Source: Caldicellulosiruptor obsidiansis OB47
Lineage (GTDB): Bacteria; Bacillota; Thermoanaerobacteria; Caldicellulosiruptorales; Caldicellulosiruptoraceae
Length of the DNA: 64,000 bases
Assembly: GCF_000145215.1 (NCBI RefSeq)
Contig: NC_014392.1
Location: forward strand, 1,868,001-1,932,000
Direction: 5' to 3'
The notes beneath the pieces are model-generated. The model was given only the letters and a program-made list of their open reading frames with translations. It was not told where the DNA came from and did no database searches. The position numbers and the translations under genes were made by a program. Of the stretch, positions 2,632 to 62,901 are shown piece by piece (position 1 is the first letter of the stretch; every line of letters starts with the position of its first letter).

Positions 2632-2670
2632 TATAAAAGCCTCCTTTTAAAATATAATGTCTGCTTACCC

Positions 2671-3042
2671 TTACTCAATCGGAAAACCAATAACGCTCAA
2701 AAGCGCCATATTGCCAAGTCTTGTGTCAAGACGTGACATTTGAACAACAATCTCTTTGTCACTCTCAACAACAAGAGAATATGGAACTTCTTTTGGAATA
2801 ATTAGACCTCCTATCAACTCCGGCTTATTTAACCATGCATGAATTGTTCTTCGGGCTTTCACAATAAAATAGTCACTTTCAATTGGTTCTCTGTCTTCAA
2901 AAAACACAGTAAGCTTTACTTTTGCATCGCTATCCCCTGTGTTTACTATACACAAACACTCATGACCAGGAATTGACATTGAACCTTCTGATGGAATGTA
3001 ACCATCTGGTATCACCCAAACTTTTTTCCCCAGATGTTTCAA
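2671..3042 (-). CDS. ASRT-family (sensory rhodopsin transducer-like) protein
   Basis: 123 residues that match the Anabaena sensory rhodopsin transducer family over the whole length. Shared features include the start (KKVWVIPDGYIP), HECLCIVNTGD, a charged FFEDREPI strand, VKARRTIHAWLN, and the end QMSRLDTRLGNMALLS. The family is a small all-beta tetramer. In cyanobacteria it partners a rhodopsin; other members have been linked to carbohydrate or DNA binding. No rhodopsin is present here. It sits 29 bp after the alpha/beta hydrolase and 40 bp before the GH42 gene, so a role in sugar sensing or binding is the natural inference. Confidence 0.8.
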   Translation of the reverse strand: MKHLGKKVWVIPDGYIPSEGSMSIPGHECLCIVNTGDSDAKVKLTVFFEDREPIESDYFIVKARRTIHAWLNKPELIGGLIIPKEVPYSLVVESDKEIVVQMSRLDTRLGNMALLSVIGFPIE

Positions 3043-3070
3043 ATTAATTACCTCCTCGCATTTGAAGATT

Positions 3071-4195
3071 TTACAAATTTTTTGTTATGTACTCCAAAGC
3101 ATCTTTTTGCATATTTAAATTAAATTCATGCCCATTTGGATAAAATTTGTATTCAAATTGGTTACCACAATCAAAATTTACAAAGTAACTTTTTATCCTC
3201 TCTACAGCAGACTGCATTGCATCTTTTGGAAAGAGACTATCATACTCACACTGCATAATAAAAAGTTTTCTTGGAGCAATCAAAGCTGCAACATCAGGCA
3301 GGTCAAGAACCCTTGTAAAACCTGGAATATGAACCATAAAAGTATGTCTTGCAGTTTTGCCAAGCATTTTTCTAAATTCAGACATAAAGGCAATAATGAT
3401 GCTACATTTTATTTCATTTCTGAGGCTGCTCAAAAAAAGTGTCCTAAAGCCCCCTAAGGAAAATCCCATGCAACCAATTCTTTTCTTCTCTACATCCTCT
3501 CTTTGCAAGAGATAGTTAAGCCATGCCAAATCTTCATTTAACAAAATGCTTGGCCAGTTTGTTCCATAAAGATTGATATTCTTAAACATTATAGGTTCAA
3601 GTTGAGAGGATATTTTATTGAAAATTCTTATGTACTCATCTAAACCTTCTTGATAATTCAAAAGCTCATTTATTGAATTGTCATCTGTTAAAAGCTCAAT
3701 TAACTCAGCAGAAAGCCTTCTTTTCCCAAAATAAAATGCATCGGGAGAAAATACAGCAAACCCGTTTTTTACAAACTCTAACGCCCACGGCAATGATGAG
3801 TAAAATTTTTTCTGGTATTCATTGACAAAAGTCTGGGTATTGTCTTGCCTGTATATTCTTTCTTTACCATAGTAGTAAAATCCACCATGGTCATGCAAAA
3901 CAACCACCACAGGATAAGGTGGATTCAAATCCCTTGGTTTTAAAAGCACAGCTTCTGAGTGAATACCATTTAAATTTCCAGCTATAATCTCTTCTTTAAA
4001 TTCACCATGGTCAATCTCAAATTTTTTATCTTCCCTGAATATTAGGCTTAAATTCAGGTAAAGAAGCGACACCAATTTATCTACAATTTTTCTTTGCTCT
4101 TCAAAAGTTTTCTGATTTGAAACTACTTCTCCCCACTTGGTGCTTTCAGAGAAACTGTTGTGTTTTCCAAAGTATTTCTCAAAAATTTCTGACAT
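3071..4195 (-). CDS. Alpha/beta hydrolase (dienelactone hydrolase/acetyl-esterase-like)
   Basis: About 374 residues from the preferred ATG at 4195, which has GAAGGG six bases upstream; the open frame extends to 4324 but that extension looks non-coding. The nucleophile elbow is GFSLGG, with an oxyanion strand VVVVLHDHGG upstream. The acid is likely the D in QCEYDSLFP and the histidine is in PNGHEFN, giving a complete triad. No signal peptide is seen. As first gene of the GH42 operon it may deacetylate sugars or oligosaccharides before glycosidase action; that role is inferred from neighbours only. Confidence 0.75.
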   Translation of the reverse strand: MSEIFEKYFGKHNSFSESTKWGEVVSNQKTFEEQRKIVDKLVSLLYLNLSLIFREDKKFEIDHGEFKEEIIAGNLNGIHSEAVLLKPRDLNPPYPVVVVLHDHGGFYYYGKERIYRQDNTQTFVNEYQKKFYSSLPWALEFVKNGFAVFSPDAFYFGKRRLSAELIELLTDDNSINELLNYQEGLDEYIRIFNKISSQLEPIMFKNINLYGTNWPSILLNEDLAWLNYLLQREDVEKKRIGCMGFSLGGFRTLFLSSLRNEIKCSIIIAFMSEFRKMLGKTARHTFMVHIPGFTRVLDLPDVAALIAPRKLFIMQCEYDSLFPKDAMQSAVERIKSYFVNFDCGNQFEYKFYPNGHEFNLNMQKDALEYITKNL

Positions 4196-4346
4196 CATTA
4201 TCCCTTCAGATATCATTTTTTTATGCCTTGTTAATTGCATTAACGTTGAACTTGTTCTTATTATACTACAACTTTTCTTTGGATTGAATGATTTTGGTGT
4301 TTTGCAAATTAAGATTAATATCAATATTTTAAGATATTTAAAAAGG

Positions 4347-4375
4347 TTGCAAATTCATTGATTTGATTTTATAAT
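4347..4375 (+). promoter_or_regulatory. Sigma-A promoter for tRNA-Arg(TCG)
   Basis: TTGCAA at 4347-4352 and TATAAT at 4370-4375 with a 17-bp spacer, 24 bp upstream of the tRNA. Confidence 0.65.
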
Positions 4376-4399
4376 TTAAATTGGTGTTATAAAAGACAT

Positions 4400-4475
4400 G
4401 CGCCCGTAGCTCAGAGGATAGAGCGTAGGACTTCGAATCCTGTGGTCGGGGGTTCGACTCCCCCCGGGCGTGCCA
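4400..4475 (+). tRNA. tRNA-Arg (anticodon TCG)
   Basis: A full cloverleaf of 76 nt. The acceptor arms are GCGCCCG and CGGGCGT, the D arm is GCTC...GAGC, the anticodon loop CTTCGAA gives TCG, and the T loop is TTCGACT. CCA is encoded. Confidence 0.93.
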
Positions 4476-4639
4476 AGTAGGATTTATCAAGGATTGAAGA
4501 TGGTAGTAAAAGTTGAAAATTGGGATTAAAAAGCAGTAAGTCCTGTGGAGAATGTATACCACTGTAAATGTCAATATCATTAAAATGAACAAAAAATCGA
4601 AAATAAAAATGTACAAAAAATAAACTTAGCTTTGCTGGT

Positions 4640-51987: not shown

Positions 51988-53242
51988 GTGGTGAAGACAT
52001 ATCTACCACCTAATTTATTGCAGAACAAGGAATGAAAAGCCACTTTCTTTAATAAGTTTTAAAGAAGTGAAGTAGAAAATTGAAATATATGGGAGGAGAC
52101 CAGAATTTTTGAATCTATGAATTTTTCAAATGGTGTCCTCCCATTCATTCCCTTGCCACTATGAGGTCTAAAAAAGTTCCACGTATCTTGCCATCTCTGA
52201 GCTCGTTGAATAAAGTCATCTTTGTTTTTACATCTCTCAGCATGAATCATTAAAAAATATTCGTCATCTGCTTCTTTGGTGAATTTTCAATTACTCCCAT
52301 CAAGTGTTTTGCTTTTGGTGGGATAGGATTTAGTTCTACACCCAAAATAGAAAACATCTCATTCCACTCCTTTAGCTTTCTTTCACTTCCTCCGCAAAAT
52401 TCTTCTCCATTGTCCAATCGGATTTTTATTGGGTTTCTTACATTATGTGTTCTTAACCATAAAGCAACCAAGGATATAAACATAAATCCAAAAGCAAATG
52501 AAAGCTCATAGGAAGTAGGCTGTAAATCTTGCTCTTGTTGCAATATCTATCATGTTCCACTCATAGCAAGGTAAATTGTATTTTTTCATATGTTCGTATA
52601 CTTCTTTTGGGAGGCTGTCTTTGTCTAAAAGGTGTTTTGTATCAAGTTGAAACTCAGAAAAAGGAATGAGGGCTTCATAATCATACAAACTTATTTCACC
52701 CTTTTTTGTCTTTCTTGTTTTTCTTGGTATGGCGTTTTTTTTGAGAATAGACTTTATTGTATTTTCGCTTATTTTAATACCATATTTTCTGAGCAGGTAA
52801 AGAGATAAACGTCTGTATTCTAAAGCCAGTTCTTTTAGATTCTTTGATTATGAGATTTTCAAGTTCAGAAGAAAGTTTTCTGGGGCAAGTTTTAGGTTTT
52901 CTTGATTTGTCCTCAAGGGGACCATATATTGCTCTTCTTACAGTATGCCTTGATACACCTAATATTTTAGCAGTTTTTGATACGTTTTTGTTATTTGCTT
53001 CAAAGACTTTTCGGACTAATTCTCTTGCTTTTTCGGGAGATATTTTTCTTATTTCGTGATATGATATAATATTCATAGTAGGCTGCCCTCCCATCCTGGT
53101 AGTTTTTTGATTTTTCTTTTGAATGGAAGATTACACTTTTTAATTATATTCATGTCAGGAGGGAGGCAGCCTCAATTCTTTTTATGAGTTTCTCCTCACT
53201 ATTTTCGCACATTTTTTCGCTGTGGTAAATATCTTTACACCT
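51988..53242 (-). mobile_element. Decayed integrase-core (IS481-like) insertion sequence
   Basis: The broken transposase is bounded by imperfect inverted repeats. The left reads GGTGAAGACATATCTACCAC (51990-52009) and the right, inverted, GGTGTAAAGATATTTACCAC (53222-53241). No target duplication was identified. A second, nearer inverted repeat (AGGCTGCC...CTCC at 53078 and 53157) surrounds the transposase promoter region. Family call and ends are tentative. Confidence 0.5.
52059..53076 (-). pseudogene. DDE integrase-core transposase with several frameshifts
   Basis: From an ATG at 53076 the protein reads an N-terminal HTH (NNKNVSKTAKILGVSRHTVRRA), then in other frames FQLDTKHLLDKDSLP, NMIDIATRARF, IRLDNGEEFCGG and WQDTWNFFRPHSGKGMNGRTP. 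These are the pieces of an integrase-core transposase in order. At least three frameshifts break it, so it is inactive. Confidence 0.8.
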
Positions 53243-53268
53243 ATTCGAGCGCAAATTTGAAAAATGTA

Positions 53269-53297
53269 TTGACAAATTCAAAAGAGCTCTTTATAAT
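53269..53297 (+). promoter_or_regulatory. Strong sigma-A promoter of tRNA-Leu
   Basis: Consensus TTGACA (53269-53274) and TATAAT (53292-53297) with a 17-bp spacer. Confidence 0.85.
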
Positions 53298-53481: not shown

Positions 53482-53558
53482 GCGCCCATAGCTCAATTGG
53501 ATAGAGCATCAGACTACGGATCTGAGGGTTGGGGGTTCGAGTCCTCCTGGGCGCGCCA
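53482..53558 (+). tRNA. tRNA-Arg (anticodon ACG), integration target
   Basis: 77 nt. The acceptor arms are GCGCCCA and TGGGCGC, the anticodon loop CTACGGA gives ACG (read as ICG), and CCA is encoded. From the first base of the anticodon loop (53514) onward the sequence is repeated at 61975. The tRNA is thus kept whole at the left end of the inserted element. Confidence 0.93.
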
Positions 53559-54120
53559 TTTATTTTCAAGGGTTTTGAGGTTTGGAATAATATCGGGCAG
53601 GTTGTTATAACACCTCTTTGATTTGAGCAAAGTCTATTATAAGGTCTTCAAAAATACCAACCTTGACCTTGTCATTGAAGGTGTATAGTTCTGGTGGCAG
53701 GTAATCTTCGGTATCTTTGAGTCTGTATACTAAAATTGTTTGATTGTTAGGGTTAACAATCAAATATTCTTTGACTTTATACTGATTATACAGGTTCAGC
53801 TTTCTTACATAGTCGTGAGATGGATTATATTCAGATACAACCTCAATTATCATCTCAGGAGCTCCAACACAGCCTTTATCAGTGAGTTTTTTCTTATCGC
53901 ATATGATTGATATATCAGGCTGGACAACGTTGATTGCCTGTTTTTCATCCTGTCCTTCCTCAACAAGAACAACATCAAATGGAGCTGTATATACTTTGCA
54001 GGGTTTGTTGTTTTGCTTAATATAATTCCCAATGATTAGTGTAAGTTCAAAAATAATTTCTTGGTGCACTCTTGAAGGTGCATGGCTCATATCATAGATG
54101 ACACCATCAATTAGCTCTAC
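53514..54120. repeat. Left attachment repeat (attL), 607 bp
   Basis: Direct repeat of 61975-62581, offset 8461 bp, with one mismatch seen (C at 54088, T at 62549). It starts exactly at the tRNA-Arg anticodon loop and runs through most of the Uma2 gene. The start point is typical of tyrosine integrase sites. The length is far greater than a normal att core. Confidence 0.85.
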
Positions 54121-54186
54121 CCTTGCGTCTTCTGGGAGCTCAAGGTAATCTGCATATGTGTAAAACTTAGGTATCCTTGCTTCCAT
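53605..54186 (-). CDS. Uma2-family (DUF820) putative endonuclease, left copy
   Basis: 193 residues from the ATG at 54186 (GAAGGTG upstream; a GTG at 54195 is in frame). ARVELIDGVIYDM, QPDISIICDKKKL, PEMIIEVVSEYNPSHDYVRKLNLY and KEYLIVNP carry the PD-(D/E)XK-like pattern E-x-D...D...E-V. It overlaps the XRE gene's end by 20 bp, so the two are cotranscribed. Uma2 proteins are common in mobile DNA and of uncertain function. All but the N-terminal 22 or so codons are inside the direct repeat. Confidence 0.8.
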   Translation of the reverse strand: MEARIPKFYTYADYLELPEDARVELIDGVIYDMSHAPSRVHQEIIFELTLIIGNYIKQNNKPCKVYTAPFDVVLVEEGQDEKQAINVVQPDISIICDKKKLTDKGCVGAPEMIIEVVSEYNPSHDYVRKLNLYNQYKVKEYLIVNPNNQTILVYRLKDTEDYLPPELYTFNDKVKVGIFEDLIIDFAQIKEVL

Positions 54187-55024
54187 TGGATTCACCTTCT
54201 TTGTTGTTTCGTTTGGATATTATAGACCTAAAATAATTTATCACAGAATCTTTACCATACTCTTCAAACAAATAATCAAATCTGGGGACTTCTCCAAAGC
54301 GAATTCTAGCATAAAATAATCTTGTTAAATCTGCAAATTTTAGCATAAGACTAGAAATAAGATCATTTAATTCACCTATACGCTCTTCTATTTTTTTTAT
54401 TTCGTTATTATATTTCTCATAGATTGGAGTTAAATTTTCAAGATTGTCAGAGTGTTTTAAAATTTCTTCCATTACACTGTATATAAAATCATCATGATAA
54501 AATAAAATATGCCTAAGAGTATTATTTTGCAATAAATCTTCTACATTACTCCAATAGTTATATAGAAGTAAAAATATTTTCTTTATAATATTTTGCCATA
54601 GTTTAGTATCACTGGACTCCAATAATACATAATAAAAGACAGTGGCAGCACTATTCATTAATGGTTCTAATATTTCTTCGATAAATGTTCCAGTTTCCTT
54701 TTCTATTTTTTCATCCCTTCTAATTTCTTCAAGTTTTTTGTTCATTATAACTTCTTTCAAACTTTCACCAACAGTTCTTTCAAACTTACTTCTTTTGGAT
54801 ATTTGTTCTTCTACTGTTCTATATTCACTTCTGCCGATAAGATAGTCCACTGTCACATTAAAATAATCAGCAATTTTAAGTAATGTGTCAAAATTAGGCT
54901 CCCTGTGTCCATTCTCATAATTCGCTATAGTTTGCGTAGAAACTCCTAAAATTTCTGCCAAATCACTTCTTGAAATATTCTTTTCTTCTCTAAGTTCTTT
55001 AAGTCTAAATCTAAATAAATTCAC
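54167..55024 (-). CDS. XRE-family repressor with long helical C-terminal domain
   Basis: 285 residues. The HTH_3 domain (LKELREEKNISRSDLAEIL, TIANYENGHREP, FNVTVDYLIG) occupies about 8-70. The rest is alpha-helical, leucine-rich and unlike peptidase-type CI repressors. It is divergent from the excisionase-like gene and its promoter overlaps inverted repeats. In layout it corresponds to Stl-type master repressors of PICIs, whose C-terminal domain senses a helper phage protein; that parallel is inference. Confidence 0.8.
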   Translation of the reverse strand: MNLFRFRLKELREEKNISRSDLAEILGVSTQTIANYENGHREPNFDTLLKIADYFNVTVDYLIGRSEYRTVEEQISKRSKFERTVGESLKEVIMNKKLEEIRRDEKIEKETGTFIEEILEPLMNSAATVFYYVLLESSDTKLWQNIIKKIFLLLYNYWSNVEDLLQNNTLRHILFYHDDFIYSVMEEILKHSDNLENLTPIYEKYNNEIKKIEERIGELNDLISSLMLKFADLTRLFYARIRFGEVPRFDYLFEEYGKDSVINYFRSIISKRNNKEGESNGSKDT

Positions 55025-55049
55025 TCAACCACCACCAAAAACTATTCGT

Positions 55050-55159
55050 TTAATTCTCATTATAAAACAAACTTAGAGAATTAACAATATTAAACTGAAT
55101 GAATTTATCTATAAAGACTTAAAACTATATGTTGACAAATACATTTAGTTTGATATAAT
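55050..55159. promoter_or_regulatory. Divergent control region of the element
   Basis: The minus-strand promoter has TTGTTA (55082-55087) and TATAAT (55059-55064), 17-bp spacer. The perfect inverted repeat TTAATTCTC/GAGAATTAA (55050-55058 and 55076-55084) brackets its -10 and abuts the -35. The plus-strand promoter has TTGACA (55132-55137) and TATAAT (55154-55159), 16-bp spacer. The related half-sites TAAACTGAATG and CATTTAGTTTG are inverted around it. This is a repressor-controlled switch. Confidence 0.7.
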
Positions 55160-55227
55160 AATATTAAAAAAACAAAGCGAATAATTTAGGATGATATTAA
55201 AAAACATCAAAAAAAGGAGTGTTATGA

Positions 55228-55446
55228 ATGGAACTATATAATGCAAACCCCCAGCGCGACAAAATAGAAAAACTCACAATCAGCATTAAAGAAGCTGCTC
55301 AAATGCTTGGCATTTCGTACAATGTTATGCTCACTTTGGTACACAGAAAAGACTTCCCCAAAATCTTGGCTGGGCAGCGACGAATCCTCATACCCAAAGA
55401 AGCTTTCATGCGTTGGGTCAATGAACAAGCTTGCCAAAATAAATAA
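55228..55446 (+). CDS. Excisionase-like helix-turn-helix protein
   Basis: 72 residues with AAGGAG before the ATG. LTISIKEAAQMLGISYNVMLTLVHRKDFPKILAGQRRILIPKEAFMRWV (in parts: IKEAAQMLGIS, RKDFPKILAGQRRILIPKEAF) is the HTH_17/AlpA-like fold used by excisionases and activators. It is the first gene rightward, under the repressor-controlled promoter. In PICIs the AlpA gene sits in the same place. Confidence 0.8.
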   Translation: MELYNANPQRDKIEKLTISIKEAAQMLGISYNVMLTLVHRKDFPKILAGQRRILIPKEAFMRWVNEQACQNK

Positions 55447-55542
55447 CAGGTACTTACCATGTAATCGCTGCTCTATTCGGTCATCGGTAGGGTGGCTTGA
55501 TAATTGCTGTTTGTTGGTTGTTATACTGAGGAGTGATTTAAA

Positions 55543-57237
55543 ATGAAAGAAATATCTAATAATATGTCAAATTCAAGCTTGTATTCCTTAGAAGCGGAAG
55601 AAGCAGAAAAAGCAGTTGTCGGTTCGATGATAATTAACCAAGATGTGATACAGGAAGTTGAAAAAGTTTTAAGCAAAGAAGACTTTTATAATGCCAATCT
55701 TAGTATAATTTTTGAAGCAATTATAAGCCTTTACAAAAGCAAAAGCCCTGTAGATATAATCACAGTTACAGAAGAACTGAAAAAGAGAAACCTTTTAGAA
55801 GTTGTTGGTGGGCAGGAGTATTTGACTAATATTATGTTTGATGTACCTACAACAGCTAATGTAATGTATTACGCAAAAGTTGTAAAACAAAAATCAATAT
55901 TAAGGAGAGCAATAAAGAAAAGTGAACTACTTTTGAACACGTTACAAACTGGCGACATAAAGCAAGCTAAGCATCTTTTATTGGATTTGACAAATGAAAC
56001 AAGTTTTATCGAAAACGAACAATATGAAAGTCTCAAGGTTCTGAGTATTTCTGAAGCTGCAGAAAATGATAGACGACAAGGAACAAATCTTTGGCTTGTA
56101 CAAAATTTTATACCAGAAAAAGGTCTTGTGATTTTTTCAGGAAGACCTAAGCATGGTAAAACCACTGTGTTATATAAAATTATCTCTGATATCGTTTCAG
56201 ACAGACCATGTTTTGGTCGAATTACAAAAAGTACAAAGGTCTTGTGGCTAACATTTGAGAACTCTTATTCCTCAGTTGAAGAAGGACTTTTGAACCACAA
56301 TTGTTTAAACATCAATAACATCCTCACAATAGACTTATCAAACCAAAAAGAAATGTTGAACGTCGAAACATTAGTAAAAATAGCAAAGAAAAATGATTGT
56401 AATTTAATAATATTGGAACCAATGACAAGTTTGAGCGAATTAGCTAAACTTGGACAGGCAAATAAACTCTCTTATGAGGCTATATATGCTACTCTAATAC
56501 CGATAATGCAGACCATGAAAAAAGAAGGTCTTTGCTTTATCGGGGTAAGACACAGTAGTAAAGGTAAAGGAACTTTGAACGATATCACCGATGTTATAGA
56601 TGCACCGATGGGTTCCACAGCTTTTTCAGCAGCTGCTGACGCATTAATTGGTTTTGGATTGCCACCAAACGCTGAAAAAAGTACTCAGCGTCGCATTATG
56701 GCAATAGGACGCGATGTTCAGCTTGATTGTTTGTTGGAGTATGATATTGAAAAAGGTTGCTACACTGAGTTAGGCGAAATGATAATTGAAAAGCAATTAT
56801 CAGACCTTGAAAACAAAGTCTATAAATATCTAAAGAACAATACAGCAGCTACTCCAAAGGAGATTGCTAAGAATACAGGCTTAAACCAAGGAAGTATTAG
56901 AAGTGCTTTACATCGATTAGTTGAAAAAGGATTAGTTATAAAAATTTCAAGTTATTATTCATTGCCCGCTAATAACAACCATGAAAATAATAATAATTCT
57001 GCAACAGTTGCAACACTTGCAACAGTTGCAACACTTGCAACACTTGCAACAGATGCAACAGTGGTCAAAAGAGATAAACTGTTGCAAGGTGTTGCAGATG
57101 CTTTGCAACACTCAGAAAATGAGATTTTACAAGGGTTTGAAGAGGATAAAACATATAGCGTTGCAAACGTTGCAGGTGTTGCAAAAACAGAAGACGATAT
57201 GACATATGAAGAAATAAAACAAAAAATTAAAAAATAG
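55543..57237 (+). CDS. Replication protein: DnaB N-terminal domain plus RepA-like ATPase and winged helix
   Basis: 564 residues. Residues of about 12-115 resemble the DnaB helicase N-terminal domain (EAEKAVVGSMIINQDVIQEV, SKSPVDIITVTEEL). An AAA_25/RepA-type ATPase follows: Walker A FSGRPKHGKTTVLYKI, Walker B LIILEPMTSLSELAK, then IGVRHSSKGKG. At about 425-470 a winged helix (TPKEIAKNTGLNQGSIRSALHRL) could bind DNA. The tail encodes Ala-Thr-Val/Leu repeats that arise from a 9-bp DNA repeat. It probably initiates replication of the element. Confidence 0.78.
   Translation: MKEISNNMSNSSLYSLEAEEAEKAVVGSMIINQDVIQEVEKVLSKEDFYNANLSIIFEAIISLYKSKSPVDIITVTEELKKRNLLEVVGGQEYLTNIMFDVPTTANVMYYAKVVKQKSILRRAIKKSELLLNTLQTGDIKQAKHLLLDLTNETSFIENEQYESLKVLSISEAAENDRRQGTNLWLVQNFIPEKGLVIFSGRPKHGKTTVLYKIISDIVSDRPCFGRITKSTKVLWLTFENSYSSVEEGLLNHNCLNINNILTIDLSNQKEMLNVETLVKIAKKNDCNLIILEPMTSLSELAKLGQANKLSYEAIYATLIPIMQTMKKEGLCFIGVRHSSKGKGTLNDITDVIDAPMGSTAFSAAADALIGFGLPPNAEKSTQRRIMAIGRDVQLDCLLEYDIEKGCYTELGEMIIEKQLSDLENKVYKYLKNNTAATPKEIAKNTGLNQGSIRSALHRLVEKGLVIKISSYYSLPANNNHENNNNSATVATLATVATLATLATDATVVKRDKLLQGVADALQHSENEILQGFEEDKTYSVANVAGVAKTEDDMTYEEIKQKIKK
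57000..57183. repeat. Iteron-like 9-bp array inside the replication gene
   Basis: TGCAAC recurs at 57000, 57009, 57018, 57027, 57036, 57045 and 57054, a period of 9 bp (TGCAACA-S-T). Scattered copies of (G/T)TTGCA follow at 57081, 57091, 57103, 57160, 57169 and 57178. Such an array near the end of an initiator gene is a candidate replication origin, as in lambdoid O genes. Confidence 0.65.
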
Positions 57238-57285
57238 AAATTAAAAAAAACAACCAAAAATTTTATTCTATATACAATAGAAAAC

Positions 57286-57450
57286 TTGACTATAAAAGAA
57301 ATTGACAGCTTCTTAGTGCATCAGCAAATTCCTTGCTTAGGATGTGGGCAATCAATAAATTATGTGTCAGCTATTGGTGGTTATTATTGTAGCAACTGTG
57401 GAGAAACAATCACGGTAGAAGTTAAGCAACCAGTGTCAGCTTTTAACTAA
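57286..57450 (+). CDS. Small zinc ribbon peptide, in frame after the replication gene stop
   Basis: Starting from a TTG at 57286 this gives 54 residues with IPCLGCGQSINYV and YYCSNCGETITVEV, a clear CxxC/CxxC zinc ribbon. No ribosome binding site is obvious. The frame is that of the replication gene, separated only by TAG at 57235-57237 and 16 codons. It may be a separate small gene, a readthrough extension, or the lost C-terminus of that protein. Confidence 0.5.
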   Translation: MTIKEIDSFLVHQQIPCLGCGQSINYVSAIGGYYCSNCGETITVEVKQPVSAFN

Positions 57451-57598
57451 TCAACTTAGAATGTGCCTGAGCCTATGTGCCTGTGCCGTAAGAAAATTTG
57501 TAGCTTACCCATTGGGGATTTAAAATAAAATTTCAAAACATGTCAGCAATTTAAATTCAGATAAAAAACAAAATTCTTATTGAAAGGAGATGTTTTCA

Positions 57599-57772
57599 AT
57601 GTCCAAAAAGGTTGTTATTGAACTTGAAGAACTTGAATATTTTTTGGATTATTTGAACGACAAAGTTTTTGATGGTTACAAGAGAGAAACAACAAAAGCA
57701 ATTAAAGAATTTCTTGAAGATCTTAAAAAACGCAACAGACTTTCAACAGACAAACGCAACTCATATTATTAA
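57599..57772 (+). CDS. Small acidic/basic helical protein
   Basis: 57 residues from the ATG at 57599 with GAAAGGAG upstream. VVIELEELEYFLDYLND followed by TTKAIKEFLEDLKKRNRL suggests two helices. Not recognised. It begins a tight run of genes (20-bp gap to the next). Confidence 0.55.
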   Translation: MSKKVVIELEELEYFLDYLNDKVFDGYKRETTKAIKEFLEDLKKRNRLSTDKRNSYY

Positions 57773-57792
57773 ACGAAGGGAGAGGTTTTACA

Positions 57793-58272
57793 ATGCCAAA
57801 GGTAACAGTGAACATACCAAAGCCAGTCTATGACAAGCTTTGCAAGCTTGCAGTTGAAGGCAGGTCTATTGATGAGATTATAATACATGCAAGTGGAGTT
57901 TTGATTGACACCATAAGAAGAGCAACAAAAAGAAAGCTGGAGACAGCACACTGGTTTACAATTGCCTCTGCTATTGATATGGATTACAGAAAGTTTTTGA
58001 TTGCATTTTTGGACGAAGGCACAGAGCTATTCACATCAATTTACGAAAAACACAACAAAACTGGTAACATTCGAGAATGTGCTCAGACTTTGAGAGTTAT
58101 TATCTTGCTTGAATACTTAAAAGAGTGTTTGCTCAATGAAGGAATTGAAAGCTTGGTAGAACTCAGATATACTCCATTGGATGAAGAACTCAAGTTTTGG
58201 CAGGACAAAGGCTTTACAATTCCACAGACCCTTTTTTTAAAATCTAAATCAGAAAGTGAGGCGATTTATTAA
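57793..58272 (+). CDS. Uncharacterised element protein with RHH-like N-terminus
   Basis: 159 residues with GGGAGAGG before the ATG. MPKVTVNIPKPVYDKLCKLAVEG resembles the strand and first helix of ribbon-helix-helix DNA-binding proteins. The remainder is mostly helical (TLRVIILLEYLKECLLNEGIESL). Its stop overlaps the next start (TAATG). A regulatory role is a guess. Confidence 0.6.
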   Translation: MPKVTVNIPKPVYDKLCKLAVEGRSIDEIIIHASGVLIDTIRRATKRKLETAHWFTIASAIDMDYRKFLIAFLDEGTELFTSIYEKHNKTGNIRECAQTLRVIILLEYLKECLLNEGIESLVELRYTPLDEELKFWQDKGFTIPQTLFLKSKSESEAIY

Positions 58273-58574
58273 TGACAACAATTGAAAAAACTCAAATGAA
58301 CGATGTTTTTGAAAAAGTCTTTAGGCAGCTAACAGTTGAACTTGTAAACTACAGGTCTAAAGAGATTCTGAAAGACCAAGAGTATTTAAAGACCACAGGC
58401 GAAATTGATATCCTTAAGGCAAAGCTCAAAGAACTGATAAGCGAGGAAGCAAAGAAGATTTACGAAGAGATTGAAGAGCTCCAGAGTTATTTGTGTGCTA
58501 TCTATGAACTGCACGGTTACAAACAAGGTTTTAAGGATGGCGCAAAGCTGACAGCAAAGCTTTTGTTTGAGTAG
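58272..58574 (+). CDS. Uncharacterised coiled-coil phage-type small protein
   Basis: 100 residues, charged and helical (LKELISEEAKKIYEEIEEL), ending HGYKQGFKDGAKLTAKLLFE. The YKQGFKDG ending is common in small proteins of Firmicutes phages. It is translationally coupled to the gene before it. Function unknown. Confidence 0.6.
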   Translation: MTTIEKTQMNDVFEKVFRQLTVELVNYRSKEILKDQEYLKTTGEIDILKAKLKELISEEAKKIYEEIEELQSYLCAIYELHGYKQGFKDGAKLTAKLLFE

Positions 58575-58742
58575 AAGCCTGCATTTGAACCGATGGGAAG
58601 AAAAACATGTGAATATGGTAAAGCACCCTAACAAACAGGGTGTTTTTTTTATTGCAAACTCATGGCAAGCTTATGACAAAATTCGACATAAAAGCTTTTT
58701 TAGTGGTATAATCAGAATAGAACATAAGTTTGAGGTGGTAAA

Positions 58743-59228
58743 ATGTTTTGTTACGATTGGGATAGTTTGAAACGTGAATTTATACTTGGCAGTTATGGAA
58801 CCCTTAAAGAGTTTGCAGAAGCTAAAAATATAAGCTATGGACTTTTAAGAAACAAAGCAAAAGGCTGGACTCAAGAGAAAAAAGAACTAAGCAAAACCAA
58901 AAACCAGCTTATAGTTGAAAAGACACTCCAAAAGCAGATAGAAAAAGCAAGTGACTATAACACTTTACACGTTGAGTTTTGGAACAGACTGCTTGAATTG
59001 GTGTGGGAAGCTTTACATGATGATAAGACTATCAAGACCAAGGAAGGCAAGATAAACATTTATGCACTTGAAAAGTTGGCTTTGGTGGTTGAAAAGGTGC
59101 AGAAAGGACAGAGACTTGCTCTTGGACTTGATGAGAAAAAAGATGGCCACAGCGAGGAACTTCTCCAGAGAATGAGAGAAATTGTCCAAGCACTCCATCA
59201 ACCAGATGAAACTTCTGTTGTAAACTAA
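58743..59228 (+). CDS. Terminase small subunit-like protein
   Basis: 161 residues with GAGGTGG before the ATG. YDWDSLKREFILGSYGTLKEFAEAKNISYGLLRNKAKGWTQEK (in parts: WDSLKREFILGSYG, LKEFAEAKNISYGLLRNKAKGW) is the HTH start of phage small terminases, which bind packaging sites. A long helical region and an oligomerisation-like C-terminus follow. No large terminase is present; satellites often carry only the small subunit to redirect a helper's packaging. A plain HTH regulator is the alternative. Confidence 0.6.
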   Translation: MFCYDWDSLKREFILGSYGTLKEFAEAKNISYGLLRNKAKGWTQEKKELSKTKNQLIVEKTLQKQIEKASDYNTLHVEFWNRLLELVWEALHDDKTIKTKEGKINIYALEKLALVVEKVQKGQRLALGLDEKKDGHSEELLQRMREIVQALHQPDETSVVN

Positions 59229-59257
59229 GTTTGCAGCCAAAGGAGTGTTAATAACAA

Positions 59258-60190
59258 ATGGAACTTCTAATTGCCAATCAGCTTGACAATCTACATCGAC
59301 AGCTTCTAATTGCCAACAACTTAAAGCTTGTGTATCACGTTGCAAACAAGTTTATGCCATGTCCTAAGGGTTACATGTATGAAGTTGATGATTTGATTTC
59401 TGAAGGTTACTTTGGATTAGTTGTGGCAGCTAATAATTACAAACCAGAACTGGGAACACCATTTTCAAGTTATGCTTGCAAAGTTATTGAAAGCAAGATA
59501 AAAAGAAGTCTGCCAAAGTACAAATTGTCTTCTGCTATCTCTTTGGACAGTCCAGTATCAAAAGAACCAGAAGAAGATTCATCTACACTTGGAGAGATAA
59601 TCTCAGATGGTTATTCAGTTGAAAAGGAAGTTATCAGAAAAGACACTCTTGATAGGCTCCAAAGATTTTTTGATACCTTGACCGATGAGGAAAAAGAGAG
59701 GGTTTTATATTACATCTCCACAGGAAAAAATCCACCTGCCAGCGATATACTGTTTAGAAAGGCAAGAAGGAAGATAATAGCCAGAATGAGGCAAGAGCAG
59801 TTTGAGGCAGACCTTGACGACTTGACAGTATTCATATCCTGTCCAGCTGTGCATGTGGCAGCAGGCAAAGAATATTTTTCATCTCCAGTTGAAGCTGCAG
59901 TTTTGGCAAGAGAAGAGAAAAGAAAACAGCTTGAAGTTTTGTCTTGTATTCCTCAATTGGACAAGCTAAGACAATTAAAACAACAAGGTGAACAGGATAG
60001 AATGAAACTACTTGCTGCCAAGTGGGAAGTGGAAGAGTTCATAGAAAGAAATTGGGATAATCTCACAATCCACAATATTAGACTTCTCAAAGACTACTTT
60101 GTTTTTTGTCTTTCGCATTTGTCCATGGTGCAAAAGTATGGTAGCAACTACAGGGAACAAATAAAGAGAATAATAAAAAAGATGGTGTGA
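59258..60190 (+). CDS. Sigma70-region-2-like protein of the element
   Basis: 310 residues with AAAGGAG upstream. LLIANNLKLVYHVANKFM, EVDDLISEGYFGLVVAANNYKPELGTPFSSYACKVIESKIKR (in parts: VDDLISEGYFGLVVAANNY and GTPFSSYACKVIESKIKR) match sigma regions 2.1-2.4, about residues 18-90. A normal region 4 is not evident; the C-terminal 200 residues are helical and unrecognised. It may direct transcription of the element's late part, including the structured tail downstream. Confidence 0.72.
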   Translation: MELLIANQLDNLHRQLLIANNLKLVYHVANKFMPCPKGYMYEVDDLISEGYFGLVVAANNYKPELGTPFSSYACKVIESKIKRSLPKYKLSSAISLDSPVSKEPEEDSSTLGEIISDGYSVEKEVIRKDTLDRLQRFFDTLTDEEKERVLYYISTGKNPPASDILFRKARRKIIARMRQEQFEADLDDLTVFISCPAVHVAAGKEYFSSPVEAAVLAREEKRKQLEVLSCIPQLDKLRQLKQQGEQDRMKLLAAKWEVEEFIERNWDNLTIHNIRLLKDYFVFCLSHLSMVQKYGSNYREQIKRIIKKMV

Positions 60191-60204
60191 TAAAAAATAT
60201 TCTT

Positions 60205-60363
60205 GCTAAAAAAGCTAAAAAAGCTAAAAAAGTCGTGAAATTAGAGCTATCAAGGGGTTTAATATACCCCTTTTTTAGCAGGCAATGCTAAAAAAGTTAC
60301 AAGAAAAGCCTAAAACCCTTGTGGCGACTTAATTACACGTTTGCTAAAAAAGTGCTAAAAAAG
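60205..60363. repeat. GCTAAAAAA repeats after the sigma-like gene
   Basis: GCTAAAAAA occurs at 60205, 60214 and 60223 (tandem, period 9) and again at 60287, 60343 and 60354; an inverted copy lies at 60272-60280. They could be protein binding sites or iterons. Confidence 0.6.
60252..60276 (+). terminator. Terminator after the sigma-like gene
   Basis: AAGGGGT and ACCCCTT flank a 7-nt loop; TTTTTT follows. Confidence 0.85.
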
Positions 60364-60374
60364 TCTTTATACCA

Positions 60375-60488
60375 ATTGGGGGTATACAAACTTCAACTCA
60401 TCCCCCCACCTTCAAGGTAGAGCTTGCCAGTGGGGACCGGCGGGGTGGCCCTTCGAAAACCTCGGAATGGGCTTCCACACGAGGGGGG
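60375..60488. other. GC-rich hairpin block, candidate cos/pac or transfer site
   Basis: About 110 bp much richer in G and C than its surroundings. It contains GGGGACCGGCGGGGTGGCCC, a CCTCG...CGAGG hairpin and runs of C and G (CCCCCC near 60403, GGGGGG near 60484). It has no open reading frame of note. Its place after the terminase-like gene makes a packaging site plausible. Confidence 0.4.
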
Positions 60489-60719
60489 TTAAAACAAACA
60501 AAAATCGACAAAAGTTTTTATTTTGCGCAAAAAAGAAGGAAAAACATTTTTAATTGTCTAAAAACAGGCAAAATTTAGGTTGTCAAACGTGACAAAAGTA
60601 CAAATCAAGCGTGCAGTTCAAAAGTTGATGGAATAGAAGGGACGAGTTAAGTATTACTGAAGTCATCAGTAAATTTTCAAAAGGACATTTTGTGTCTTTT
60701 TGATTTTTTGGCAGAAATT

Positions 60720-61515
60720 AAAATAGAACCTCATATCACAGGACACAGGCGACGAAATTCGTTTTCTGTAGCCTTGAGAGGTATAGTCTAACTTGAAACC
60801 TCTAAAAGAACAGTTTGAATTGTTCTTTGTAAAAGACAAAAAATCAAAAGCTCAAAACGATCTTTTGAAAATCCTAAAAGCGTAGCTTTGAGTTATGTTG
60901 TTGCAAACTTGGATTTTAACAAGGGGTCGATAAGTTATCGAGGGCTAAAAAGTGTTTGAAGAACACAAAGAACAGAAGATATAAGGCTTTGACCGCAGTG
61001 GTCAAACTTTATTCTAAAGTAAAAAACTTCTCAAAAAGAGGAAATTAAAACTGCTAAGCAGCAGTCAAAATTTATTCTTGAGAAATCCAGAGATTTCGGA
61101 GTCCCTAAAAAGGCTCCAACAAACAAGGACAATAAAAAGACAGATAAGAGTAACAAGACAATGGGAAGAGATAGAAAATCTCTGGAGCTTTTATACTTGG
61201 AACCGACAGACAGGGACTTATATTGCTTTTAGATGACAATAACATGAACATGCTAAGAAATGCTAACCTTTGGAGAACGCTCTACAAGAAAATTTAAAGG
61301 GCATTCTAACTTAGAACATCCTAAAAGCAGGGTGTCGAAATTCACGACATCCTGAAAGCTATCCCGAGATTTCCGAGTCCCTAAAAAAGACGCATCTCTG
61401 ATTTGGGAAGTCATCTCATAGGGATAGGGTATTGCAAATCTCTGCTGCTTTTCAATCAGGACCGACGCGCTGGAGTTTGCATATGTGACCGCAAGTTTTC
61501 AATGTTTTTTGGGGC
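60720..61515 (+). ncRNA. Candidate large structured RNA of the element
   Basis: About 800 bp without a credible gene but dense in hairpins: AAGAACA/TGTTCTT (60807-60828), CTCAAA/TTTGAG (60850-60892), TCGATAA/TTATCGA (60927-60943), TTTGACC/GGTCAAA (60988-61006), CTGCT/AGCAG (61050-61060) and CAGGGTGTCG/CGACATCCTG (61328-61354). A structural unit occurs twice (61087-61218 and 61364-61460). CTAAAA motifs recur throughout. The plus strand is assumed from the gene direction; ends are approximate and no clear promoter or terminator was found. Confidence 0.42.
61087..61460 (+). repeat. Duplicated structural unit within the candidate RNA
   Basis: Copy 1 (61087-61208) and copy 2 (61364-61470) share GAGATTTC-N-GAGTCCCTAAAAA, then GGGAAG, then AAATCTCTG-N2-GCTTTT and GGA(A)CCGAC in the same order. 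In both copies GAGATTT can pair with AAATCTC. In copy 1 the pairing is a perfect 10 bp (CCAGAGATTT at 61087-61096, AAATCTCTGG at 61176-61185). Confidence 0.7.
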
Positions 61516-61752
61516 TTGTCTGTTCTTTGCAGGCTTGAGTTTGAACTCCAGAATTTTGAGCCAAAAAGCTACTTAGTAAAACTTAAGGTTTTGAACTTGA
61601 GTAAACTTGAGGATTACAAAAAGTTGGCAGTTGCAAGTCCAGTATTAAACATTTTTGCTAATCATACCGTTGTTTATGAGGTATGCCCAAGAATCAAGGT
61701 GGTTAATTTATATGTCCAAATCATTTTGAAGCGTTTTAGAGGCTTTTTATGA
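61516..61752 (+). CDS. Possible small protein at the right end of the element
   Basis: 78 residues from a TTG, ending IVLNIFANHTVVYEV-like (SPVLNIFANHTVVYEV), RIKVVNLYVQIILKRF. No good ribosome binding site. It may be a real small gene or chance. The stretch 61753-61974 after it holds only the CTACAGCTA repeats. Confidence 0.3.
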   Translation: MSVLCRLEFELQNFEPKSYLVKLKVLNLSKLEDYKKLAVASPVLNIFANHTVVYEVCPRIKVVNLYVQIILKRFRGFL

Positions 61753-61829
61753 GGCATTGAGACAAAAACTGTATAACACTGTGGACGTTTGCAGTATAAA
61801 GATTTTCGCAAAATATAGATAAGATTTTA

Positions 61830-61858
61830 CTACAGCTACTACAGCTACACTACAGCTA
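61830..61858. repeat. Three CTACAGCTA direct repeats near attR
   Basis: CTACAGCTA begins at 61830, 61839 and 61850, about 120 bp inside the right attachment repeat. Short direct repeats in this position resemble integrase arm or excisionase binding sites. Confidence 0.5.
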
Positions 61859-61974
61859 CCGAAATAAAAAAATGTGCTTTTTATTGAGCTGGAATAAATT
61901 TTCAAAGTTTTGCAAACAAGATATATCAAGCAATTTATGACCTGTTAAAGTTTGTAAAATAGCATTTCCTCAAT

Positions 61975-62581
61975 CTACGGATCTGAGGGTTGGGGGTTCG
62001 AGTCCTCCTGGGCGCGCCATTTATTTTCAAGGGTTTTGAGGTTTGGAATAATATCGGGCAGGTTGTTATAACACCTCTTTGATTTGAGCAAAGTCTATTA
62101 TAAGGTCTTCAAAAATACCAACCTTGACCTTGTCATTGAAGGTGTATAGTTCTGGTGGCAGGTAATCTTCGGTATCTTTGAGTCTGTATACTAAAATTGT
62201 TTGATTGTTAGGGTTAACAATCAAATATTCTTTGACTTTATACTGATTATACAGGTTCAGCTTTCTTACATAGTCGTGAGATGGATTATATTCAGATACA
62301 ACCTCAATTATCATCTCAGGAGCTCCAACACAGCCTTTATCAGTGAGTTTTTTCTTATCGCATATGATTGATATATCAGGCTGGACAACGTTGATTGCCT
62401 GTTTTTCATCCTGTCCTTCCTCAACAAGAACAACATCAAATGGAGCTGTATATACTTTGCAGGGTTTGTTGTTTTGCTTAATATAATTCCCAATGATTAG
62501 TGTAAGTTCAAAAATAATTTCTTGGTGCACTCTTGAAGGTGCATGGCTTATATCATAGATGACACCATCAATTAGCTCTAC
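61975..62581. repeat. Right attachment repeat (attR), 607 bp
   Basis: Starts with CTACGGATCTGAGGG, the 3' part of tRNA-Arg from the anticodon loop through CCA, and continues through the Uma2 gene in near-perfect identity to 53514-54120. It diverges after 62581. Confidence 0.85.
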
Positions 62582-62647
62582 TCTTGCGTTTTGTGGAAAC
62601 CCAAGATAGTCTGCATAAGTGTAAACCTTAGATATTCTTTCTTCTAT
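62066..62647 (-). pseudogene. Uma2-family gene, right copy, start codon ATA
   Basis: The C-terminal 170 or so codons are identical to the left copy at protein level. The N-terminal part (EERISKVYTYADYLGFPQNA) has clearly diverged. The codon aligned with the left start is ATA, with an in-frame TAG just before it. Either it uses ATA or a later GTG, or it is inactive. Confidence 0.7.
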
Positions 62648-62652
62648 CTAAA

Positions 62653-62901
62653 TCACCTTCTTTGTTGTATTCTTTCGAGTTTGCGTAATAAACTGTACTG
62701 GTAAAATAAATCTAATAAACTTACTAAATTTTTTAACAAATCAAATACAAGAGTCTCTAAAGAACCTACCAAATCATCTGAAACTTCAAGTCTTTGTCTA
62801 ATTAATTCAATATATTTCCTAAATTTTTGAATCTCTAATGAGCTTTGTAAATCTAACAAGTTGACAAGGTATTCCAATAATAATGTTTCCTTTTTGTACA
62901 T
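62653..62901 (-). CDS. Small coiled-coil protein upstream of the right Uma2 copy
   Basis: 82 residues, helical and leucine-rich (LLLEYLVNLLDLQSSLEIQ, LVFDLLKNLVSLLDLFYQY). Its position before Uma2 is that of the XRE repressor at the left end, and the joining DNA (AACAAAGAAGGTGA) is shared. It may be the remnant of a related regulator gene or a small gene of its own. The stretch 62902-63038 shows nothing else. Confidence 0.45.
   Translation of the reverse strand: MYKKETLLLEYLVNLLDLQSSLEIQKFRKYIELIRQRLEVSDDLVGSLETLVFDLLKNLVSLLDLFYQYSLLRKLERIQQRR

Follow-up and report, generated by a model that had tools for sequence, protein, structure and literature searches.

A tRNA-Arg island of Caldicellulosiruptor obsidiansis OB47 that has lost its integrase, a probable member of a PICI-like phage-satellite family

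The chromosome of Caldicellulosiruptor obsidiansis OB47 carries, within the stretch of 64,000 nucleotides analyzed here (the window; positions 1,868,001 to 1,932,000 of NC_014392.1), an island of 8,461 bp delimited by direct repeats that start at 53514 and 61975, both within tRNA-Arg(ACG) anticodon loop sequence. The tRNA-Arg(ACG) gene predicted by ARAGORN at 53482 to 53558 (+ strand) is intact and forms the left-end integration site. Within it lies the first of two attachment (att) cores of 45 nt, attL (53514 to 53558, +), which runs from the anticodon loop to CCA; the second, attR, is found at 61975 to 62019 (+). An earlier sequence-only reading of this DNA had reported direct repeats from the anticodon loop, and their position and spacing hold, but the repeat is longer than it described and extends over 694 nt (53514 to 54207 and 61975 to 62668). 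Each copy consists of the att core (the 3' part of the tRNA), a spacer, and a Uma2 gene; the first 574 nt of the pair are identical, while the last 120 nt contain 19 mismatches (84% identity). The island is probably a chromosomal copy of a phage-satellite family of Caldicellulosiruptor that resembles the phage-inducible chromosomal islands (PICIs).

The gene next to the tRNA is the element copy of Uma2, a nuclease-family gene (53605 to 54195, −) whose best PADLOC match is PDC-S03 (176 bits). PDC stands for "phage defence candidate," and Uma2 may have a role in defence. It is followed by an HTH_3 repressor, CI/Stl-like (54167 to 55024, −; Pfam), which faces an HTH_17 excisionase/AlpA-like protein (55228 to 55446, +). 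Opposed promoter-like sites, recognized by consensus only, lie between the two (55059 to 55159), one on the − strand at 55087 to 55059 (10/12) and the other on the + strand at 55132 to 55159 (12/12). Since the promoter scan found 34 promoter-like sites when 26.5 were expected, only its top matches are meaningful. The next gene codes for a replication protein (Rep; 55543 to 57237, +) with DnaB_N and AAA_25 domains and a winged helix-turn-helix, and tandem 9-bp repeats TTGCAACAN within the 3' end of rep (57000 to 57062, +) are a possible origin; similar repeats are present in the rep of two relatives (G001a and G011b, named after their genomes). The divergent switch and the replication ATPase with iterons proposed by the sequence-only reading are therefore both recovered. 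Downstream are a small zinc-ribbon-like open reading frame (ORF) that is weak, with no match above the curated cut-off (57286 to 57450, +), proteins of 60 aa (57590 to 57772, +) and 159 aa (57793 to 58272, +) that are present in several relatives, and a DUF6809 protein (58272 to 58574, +). A terminator-like hairpin (58620 to 58646) and then a promoter-like site (58683 to 58712, 11/12), both on the + strand and assigned by consensus only, precede terS. As had been claimed, we found no structural gene and no integrase between the repeats when the 10 window ORFs were scanned against Pfam, PHROGs, and NCBIfam, and these scans, together with a phrog_2 search for the large terminase subunit (TerL), gave no TerL, portal, capsid, or tail gene in the interval. 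The PF00589 and PF00239 matches of the OB47 genome (G000) all lie elsewhere.

The gene at 58743 to 59228 (+) codes for a small terminase subunit (TerS), matching phrog_23746 (1e-13) and phrog_1206, "terminase small subunit" (4e-6). The latter match proves little alone, because the insertion sequence (IS) transposase of the IS21 type in G011b obtains a "terminase small subunit" score too (21 bits, PHROGs). The identity of the protein rests instead on its homology to TerS genes located beside TerL; by that homology, and by the location of its phage relatives, the window protein is a small terminase, in agreement with the earlier description of it as small-terminase-like. An alignment over 165 aa gives it 43% identity to the TerS of the prophage that another genome of the genus (G010) contains; there, the terS ORF overlaps the TerL start, and portal, major head, and tape-measure genes come after it. 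The residues kept between the two proteins are 24 of 33 in the C-terminal region, 24 of 60 in the N-terminal region, and 13 of 40 in the middle, as would be expected if the contact with TerL were kept and the choice of DNA differed. Among viral sequences, we found 20 loci with a G010-type TerL, and in four of them (L095 to L098) a TerS match at 42 to 52% identity lies just before TerL; the TerL of L095 is the same as that of the G010 prophage. More distant relatives (30 to 33% identical) occur in six viral loci; in the two for which gene order was read (L059 and L061), a confirmed TerL and a portal-sized ORF come after TerS. Outside the genus, TerS gave weak matches in 3 of 25 other genomes of the class, and the PDB held no credible relative (best E value 0.19, a designed protein). 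A tree of 17 sequences is compatible with one or several origins of the satellite TerS. The ratio of nonsynonymous to synonymous substitutions (dN/dS) of terS relative to the window copy was 0.06 to 0.19 in six of seven comparisons, with one undefined and some dS values saturated.

The adjoining gene (59258 to 60190, +) codes for a sigma-70-like protein whose C-terminal domain is conserved but of unassigned kind. A Sigma70_r2 match (1e-11, Pfam) substantiates the sigma-like protein of the earlier reading, and a sequence search of the PDB also matched mainly region 2; the C-terminal part (approximately residues 185 to 310) matched no Pfam family and is highly conserved in 14 copies. Full-length matches were found in 15 places (one with an in-frame stop), distributed over 10 of the 12 genomes of the genus and lacking in G006 and G009. 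Its dN/dS relative to the window copy was 0.11 to 0.19 in all nine comparisons; hence, the gene is under constraint. A search of genome_contigs, from which the window's genome and its near relatives may have been left out, found no relatives, and viral_contigs gave a single match, to residues 14 to 127. Among helper-type TerL loci, the only match covered 78 residues at 29% identity (L095). An AlphaFold2 model built from 14 sequences had a mean pLDDT of 47. G008 has a likely remnant of a further element (G008:C1:758128-759215), in which part of a broken integrase lies approximately 0.8 kb from a fragment (50 bits) of the sigma-like C terminus.

Beyond the sigma gene is a long tail with no ORF of more than 78 aa. 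Just 3' of the sigma stop codon there are seven copies of GCTAAAAAAG (60205 to 60363), followed by a conserved block of the form C6...G6 (60402 to 60488) and by a well-conserved noncoding block of 367 bp (61245 to 61611) that is shared with the C. bescii plasmid pATHE01 at 75% identity. Tail blocks are common to most members of the family, pATHE01 included. The iterons were considered as TerS sites and rejected, as the choice between GCTAAAAAAG and GCGAAAAAAG does not track the TerS helix-turn-helix: G002b has the TerS type of G002a, yet its repeats are mostly GCT, and several members have no repeats. Folds of the single-sequence tail are stable (z of −4.5 and −5.5, 20 shuffles each). Folding the + strand alignment of one conserved block (61245 to 61611; nine sequences, 514 columns) gave −31 kcal/mol, the covariation term being +0.71, and 8 of 66 pairs had two-sided changes; a conserved RNA fold in this block is not supported. 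Rfam at gathering level returned only tRNAs in nine relatives, and its sole match in the window tail was far under the cut-off (25.7 versus 83 bits). A role of the tail as DNA, in packaging or regulation, seems more likely.

The sequence-only reading had suggested looking for the same gene order in other Caldicellulosiruptor genomes, and relatives without recognized structural genes were found. Pieces of the query matched all 12 genomes of the genus at the DNA level, some of them only through tRNA, Uma2, or IS-like matches. Paired att repeats were present at eight of the nine tRNA sites tested (not at that of G006), which, with G002a determined separately, gives nine measured elements (the window copy, G001a, G001b, G002a, G002b, G003b, G005a, G008b, and G011b) of 7,223 to 13,625 bp, located at tRNA-Arg(ACG), Arg(TCT), Thr(CGT), and Pro(CGG). 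Six further members (G003a, G004a, G007b, G008a, G010b, and G011a) lie outside this measured set. TerS is intact in five of the nine (the window copy, G001b, G002a, G002b, and G008b). The sigma-like gene is intact in seven (these five plus G001a and G005a); the copy in G003b is broken, and none was found in G011b, an element that contains IS elements. Most family members thus share the sigma-like gene and the tail, which are not oddities of the window copy. In contrast to this core, the Rep modules are swapped: DnaB_N/AAA_25 in the window copy (with which G001a clusters), DUF927 with a CHC2 zinc finger in G008b, Prim-Pol in G001b, DUF3987 in G002a, DnaG-DnaB in G007b, and Prim-Pol/AAA_25 in pATHE01. 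The right part of some relatives contains toxin-antitoxin genes (HicAB in G004a; a HigB-like toxin with a repressor-like partner in G008b). The nine elements have 147 non-overlapping ORFs of at least 55 aa in 58 clusters, the G002a locus being cut before its integrase. From each of the 26 clusters reaching 100 aa, one member was compared with PHROGs, and no structural or lytic family was found at a credible score; matches were to replication, regulation, integration, transposase, toxin-antitoxin, and TerS families, plus the IS21 transposase match mentioned above, which was discounted, and some clusters had no match or matched only families of unknown function. A second subfamily (G003a, G007b, and G010b; L040, L046, and L051) has a Rep of the DnaG-DnaB type (scanned in G007b and assigned by clustering in the others), sits near tRNA-Trp or tRNA-Arg(TCG), and has tails without A-tract repeats.

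The integration site itself varies, a point that had been proposed as a check: the sequence downstream of tRNA-Arg(ACG) differs in other species, and G009 and G010 are free of the element. When the flanks of the island were joined in silico, they aligned in one piece across the junction to G010 (987 columns, 88.8% identity, 12 gaps) and to G009 (931 columns, 78.3%, 54 gaps). The element-free arrangement in both is tRNA-Arg, spacer, and a solo Uma2 directly 3' of the tRNA (L050:1991-2581 in G010; L049:2585-3166 in G009), and these solo genes are possible scars of earlier satellites. The corresponding gene in OB47 is the resident chromosomal Uma2 outside the element (62066 to 62656, −; the longest ORF starting with ATG, GTG, or TTG is 62066 to 62530).

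The missing integrase had been regarded as a feature of the satellite family, and this did not stand. Nine members have Uma2 beside the repressor (the window copy, G001a, G002b, G003b, G004a, G005a, G006, G008b, and G011b). Their integrase is intact in four (G001a, G002b, G004a, and G008b), broken or truncated in three (G003b, G006, and G011b), and absent only from the window copy and G005a; every remaining copy is on the side of Uma2 that faces the tRNA (G004a had no predicted tRNA gene). By this comparison, the absence is a secondary loss in those two copies and not a trait of the family. The repeat TACAGCTAC, presumed to mark integrase arm sites, points the same way. Two copies between the tRNA side and int plus three, at spacings of 9 and 11, toward the right end occur in the four members with an intact integrase, and the left and right counts are 0 and 3 in the window copy, 1 and 3 in G003b and G011b, 2 and 0 in G006, and 0 and 1 in G005a. 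The three window copies (61831 to 61859, +), starting at 61831, 61840, and 61851, are the only ones in the whole 64 kb and would be the right-hand arm sites.

The likely cause of the loss in the window copy is gene conversion between the two Uma2 copies, in which the tRNA-spacer-Uma2 block would have been copied over tRNA-int-Uma2, removing the integrase and the left arm sites. Compared with the right copy, the left Uma2 is a mosaic, with 82.4% identity over its 5' 108 nt and 100% over the other 483 nt, and the shared tract is 86.3% identical to the right-hand copy of G005a and 79.3% to the left-hand one. Left and right copies of the spacer that follows the tRNA are nearly the same in G000, as they are in G005, and the two genomes differ from each other. 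Two facts speak against this account. The shared tract has its closest match in the Uma2 that the G001a element carries (90.1%), which leaves the direction of conversion uncertain, and G005a has no integrase though its two Uma2 copies differ by approximately 20% throughout; its conversion tract would therefore have to be short or old, and this is the weaker part of the explanation. One could instead suppose that the integrase was never there and that the Uma2 nuclease next to the tRNA drives integration in a homing-like manner, as Uma2 is the immediate neighbor of the tRNA in the window copy and in G005a and, standing alone, also in G009 and G010. We find this hardly credible, given the intact tyrosine integrase between the tRNA-side arm repeats and Uma2 in G001a, G002b, G004a, and G008b, the right-hand arm repeats that the window copy still has, and the Uma2 genes at many further chromosomal locations. 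With a conversion, and with integrase and left arm sites lost, the window island should be unable to leave unless an integrase is supplied in trans or the two 694-nt repeats recombine homologously and delete it. Uma2 recombination would be a route to fixing a satellite in place, removing the integrase and leaving the att and right-hand arm sites.

A search for prophages that could act as helpers, also suggested in the sequence-only reading, found one with a related TerS, the G010 prophage of approximately 29 kb at tRNA-Thr(CGT). Like the phage contigs L096 to L098, it shares with the satellites a homologous TerS, there located directly upstream of TerL; unlike the satellites, the G010 prophage carries TerL, portal, head, and tail genes. 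The phrog_2 search gave a strong TerL in G010 and G006 and only matches of 19 to 24 bits elsewhere. The G006 gene (G006:C1:809037-810419; 158 bits) has two stops in the matched part, and that genome has neither a satellite TerS nor a full-length sigma-like match. A satellite remnant (Uma2 fragment, integrase, and arm repeats; L087:1465-3000 and L088:11853-11927) directly adjoins the G010 prophage at the same tRNA-Thr(CGT). We considered and rejected the possibility that the helper shares the satellite integrase: the 96% match is G010 int1, which we read as part of a satellite remnant and not as a prophage gene because a Uma2 fragment and arm repeats lie alongside it. The other integrase of G010, int2, is 29 to 32% identical to the satellite integrases of G001a, G002b, G004a, and G008b.

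By its anatomy, the element is best read as working like a PICI-type satellite. Gram-positive PICIs of the SaPI (Staphylococcus aureus pathogenicity island) type have the same order of integrase, accessory gene, repressor facing excisionase, rep, and late terS, with a specific att site and no recognized structural genes; this layout is complete in G001a (with a decayed terS), G002b, G004a, and G008b, and the window copy has it without the integrase. According to PMC6092414, PICIs carry accessory genes at the 3' end or in the int-stl interval, and the Uma2 and toxin-antitoxin genes of the Caldicellulosiruptor family match those positions. A terS, present in some PICIs, has its homolog here. In contrast to PICIs, the family core usually includes the sigma-like gene and a noncoding tail of 1.3 to 1.8 kb, and a plasmid-borne relative of the core exists (pATHE01). 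The elements measure 7.2 to 13.6 kb (n = 9), set beside approximately 15 kb for PICIs. PICI att sites are never occupied by prophages, as stated in PMC6092414, whereas the G010 prophage and members of this family both use tRNA-Thr(CGT). Because of this shared site, and because induction and helper packaging are inferred, we do not claim full PICI membership. The PICMI satellites of the Vibrionaceae (phage-inducible chromosomal minimalist islands) are similarly small, with an AlpA-type regulator and a DUF3987-type rep as in G002a. Their prototype has no terS homolog and they insert at fis, as described in PMC10803314, while the Caldicellulosiruptor family has terS and sits at tRNAs, the window copy being without int.

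In such a life cycle, the repressor would hold the divergent promoters until a helper phage relieves repression, the excisionase-like protein together with an integrase would cut the element out as a circle through the att sites at the tRNA, and the circle would be replicated by Rep. The terS-sigma unit, with its own promoter-like site, would then make TerS, which would bring satellite DNA to the TerL and capsids of the helper, and the sigma-like protein would probably time or boost late transcription. If this is true, late transcription would be controlled in an unusual way, by a sigma-like gene coupled to terS, giving a satellite its own sigma factor. The range of PICI-like satellites would also take in a genus of extreme thermophiles that is of interest to industry, and pATHE01 would acquire a testable role. 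A literature search whose coverage excluded most subscription papers found no phage satellite described in Caldicellulosiruptor.

The satellite reading, as already proposed from the sequence of the island, gains from the TerS homology, the relatives without recognized structural genes, and the variation at the site, and several observations count against it. Induction of the element, a circular form, and particles were not observed. Three of the nine measured elements (G001a, G003b, and G005a) have a decayed TerS, none was found in G011b, and the sigma-like gene is intact in two that lost TerS (G001a and G005a), so that the sigma-like protein may not serve packaging. Of the 12 Caldicellulosiruptor genomes, only 1 was found to have a helper-type TerL, the single phrog_2 match in G000 (22.7 bits) is not convincing as a TerL, the site that the G010 prophage shares with satellite remains is unlike the practice of classical PICIs, and no pac or cos site was identified. 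Finally, the TerS-sigma-tail block is also plasmid-borne, on pATHE01 (NC_012036.1; circular, 8,291 bp).

One alternative is an integrative plasmid family, with elements integrated at tRNAs or existing as circles like pATHE01, spread by transformation or other means, with TerS and the sigma-like protein serving other functions or being passengers. A block of 2,790 bp is 99.96% identical between pATHE01 and the integrated element G002a, the Rep modules are plasmid- or phage-like, and the losses of TerS just listed, with the sigma-like gene surviving in two cases, fit this alternative as well. Yet no relaxase or mobilization family was found with Pfam among the 10 window ORFs and the proteins of relatives (some of them flanking chromosomal ones), pATHE01 is typed non-mobilizable, and intact copies of TerS, a protein of phage packaging, are under purifying selection, so that we regard a plasmid family as rather unlikely. 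That relatives might turn out to be conjugative plasmids had been foreseen, and the block is indeed on a plasmid, but not on a conjugative one. A remnant of a temperate phage stripped of its structural genes appears improbable to us. TerS, sigma, repressor, excisionase, and rep are all known from phages, the window integrase is already lost, and several relatives are decayed; however, none of the nine elements has a structural family among the scanned cluster representatives, yet their core genes are constrained, and the genus prophage with a related TerS has another layout and integrase.

Returning to the phage-satellite reading, we put forward only tentatively, and with some doubt, that TerS, the sigma-like protein, and a cis-acting tail of 1.3 kb form a mobile packaging cassette that has been added to a number of mutually unrelated Caldicellulosiruptor replicons (a free plasmid and islands whose integrases and replicases differ), making each of them packageable by a helper, with the sigma-like protein steering RNA polymerase to late promoters of satellite or helper. 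pATHE01 shares the TerS-sigma-tail block (80% DNA identity to the window over terS-sigma) and differs in being a free circle with a Prim-Pol/AAA_25 Rep and in having no integrase or repressor-excisionase switch annotated. The block is sharp-edged relative to several relatives (1764 to 4553 and 4554 to 4800 of L039, the plasmid), and a second, diverged tail piece adjoins terS, as if blocks had been replaced or joined. Contig C2 of G002 is identical to NC_012036.1, and G002 represents C. bescii DSM 6725 or a strain very close to it; the plasmids of C. bescii are named pBAL (8.3 kb) and pBAS2 in PMC3643907.

The same element bears on a published deletion. Resequencing described in PMC7071700 showed that C. 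bescii ORCB002 is missing genes annotated CopG, hypothetical, XRE, primase, DUF3987, and XerD, which flank a hypothetical and a sigma-70 gene on either side; the flanked pair plus 1,343 bp is also found on pATHE01 and in one other place. The list of lost genes fits G002a, with its Prim-Pol and DUF3987 genes and then a tyrosine integrase, and with a 59-nt repeat on each side at tRNA-Pro(CGG), the two copies lying 9,273 bp apart. In our reading, which is not that of the authors, ORCB002 lost the whole of G002a, and the loss of its middle was hidden by reads that came from the other copies, which would offer an explanation of the two-part deletion. Apart from this observation, our literature search (again without most subscription papers, including the original pATHE01/pBAL paper) found nothing on Caldicellulosiruptor elements.

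Upstream of the island, the window contains broken-up transposase-like ORFs (52059 to 53094, −) just upstream of tRNA-Leu(GAG). ORFs similar to these pieces form a cluster of 10 members in related loci, and the adjoining segment (53100 to 53280) matches many locations in the genus.

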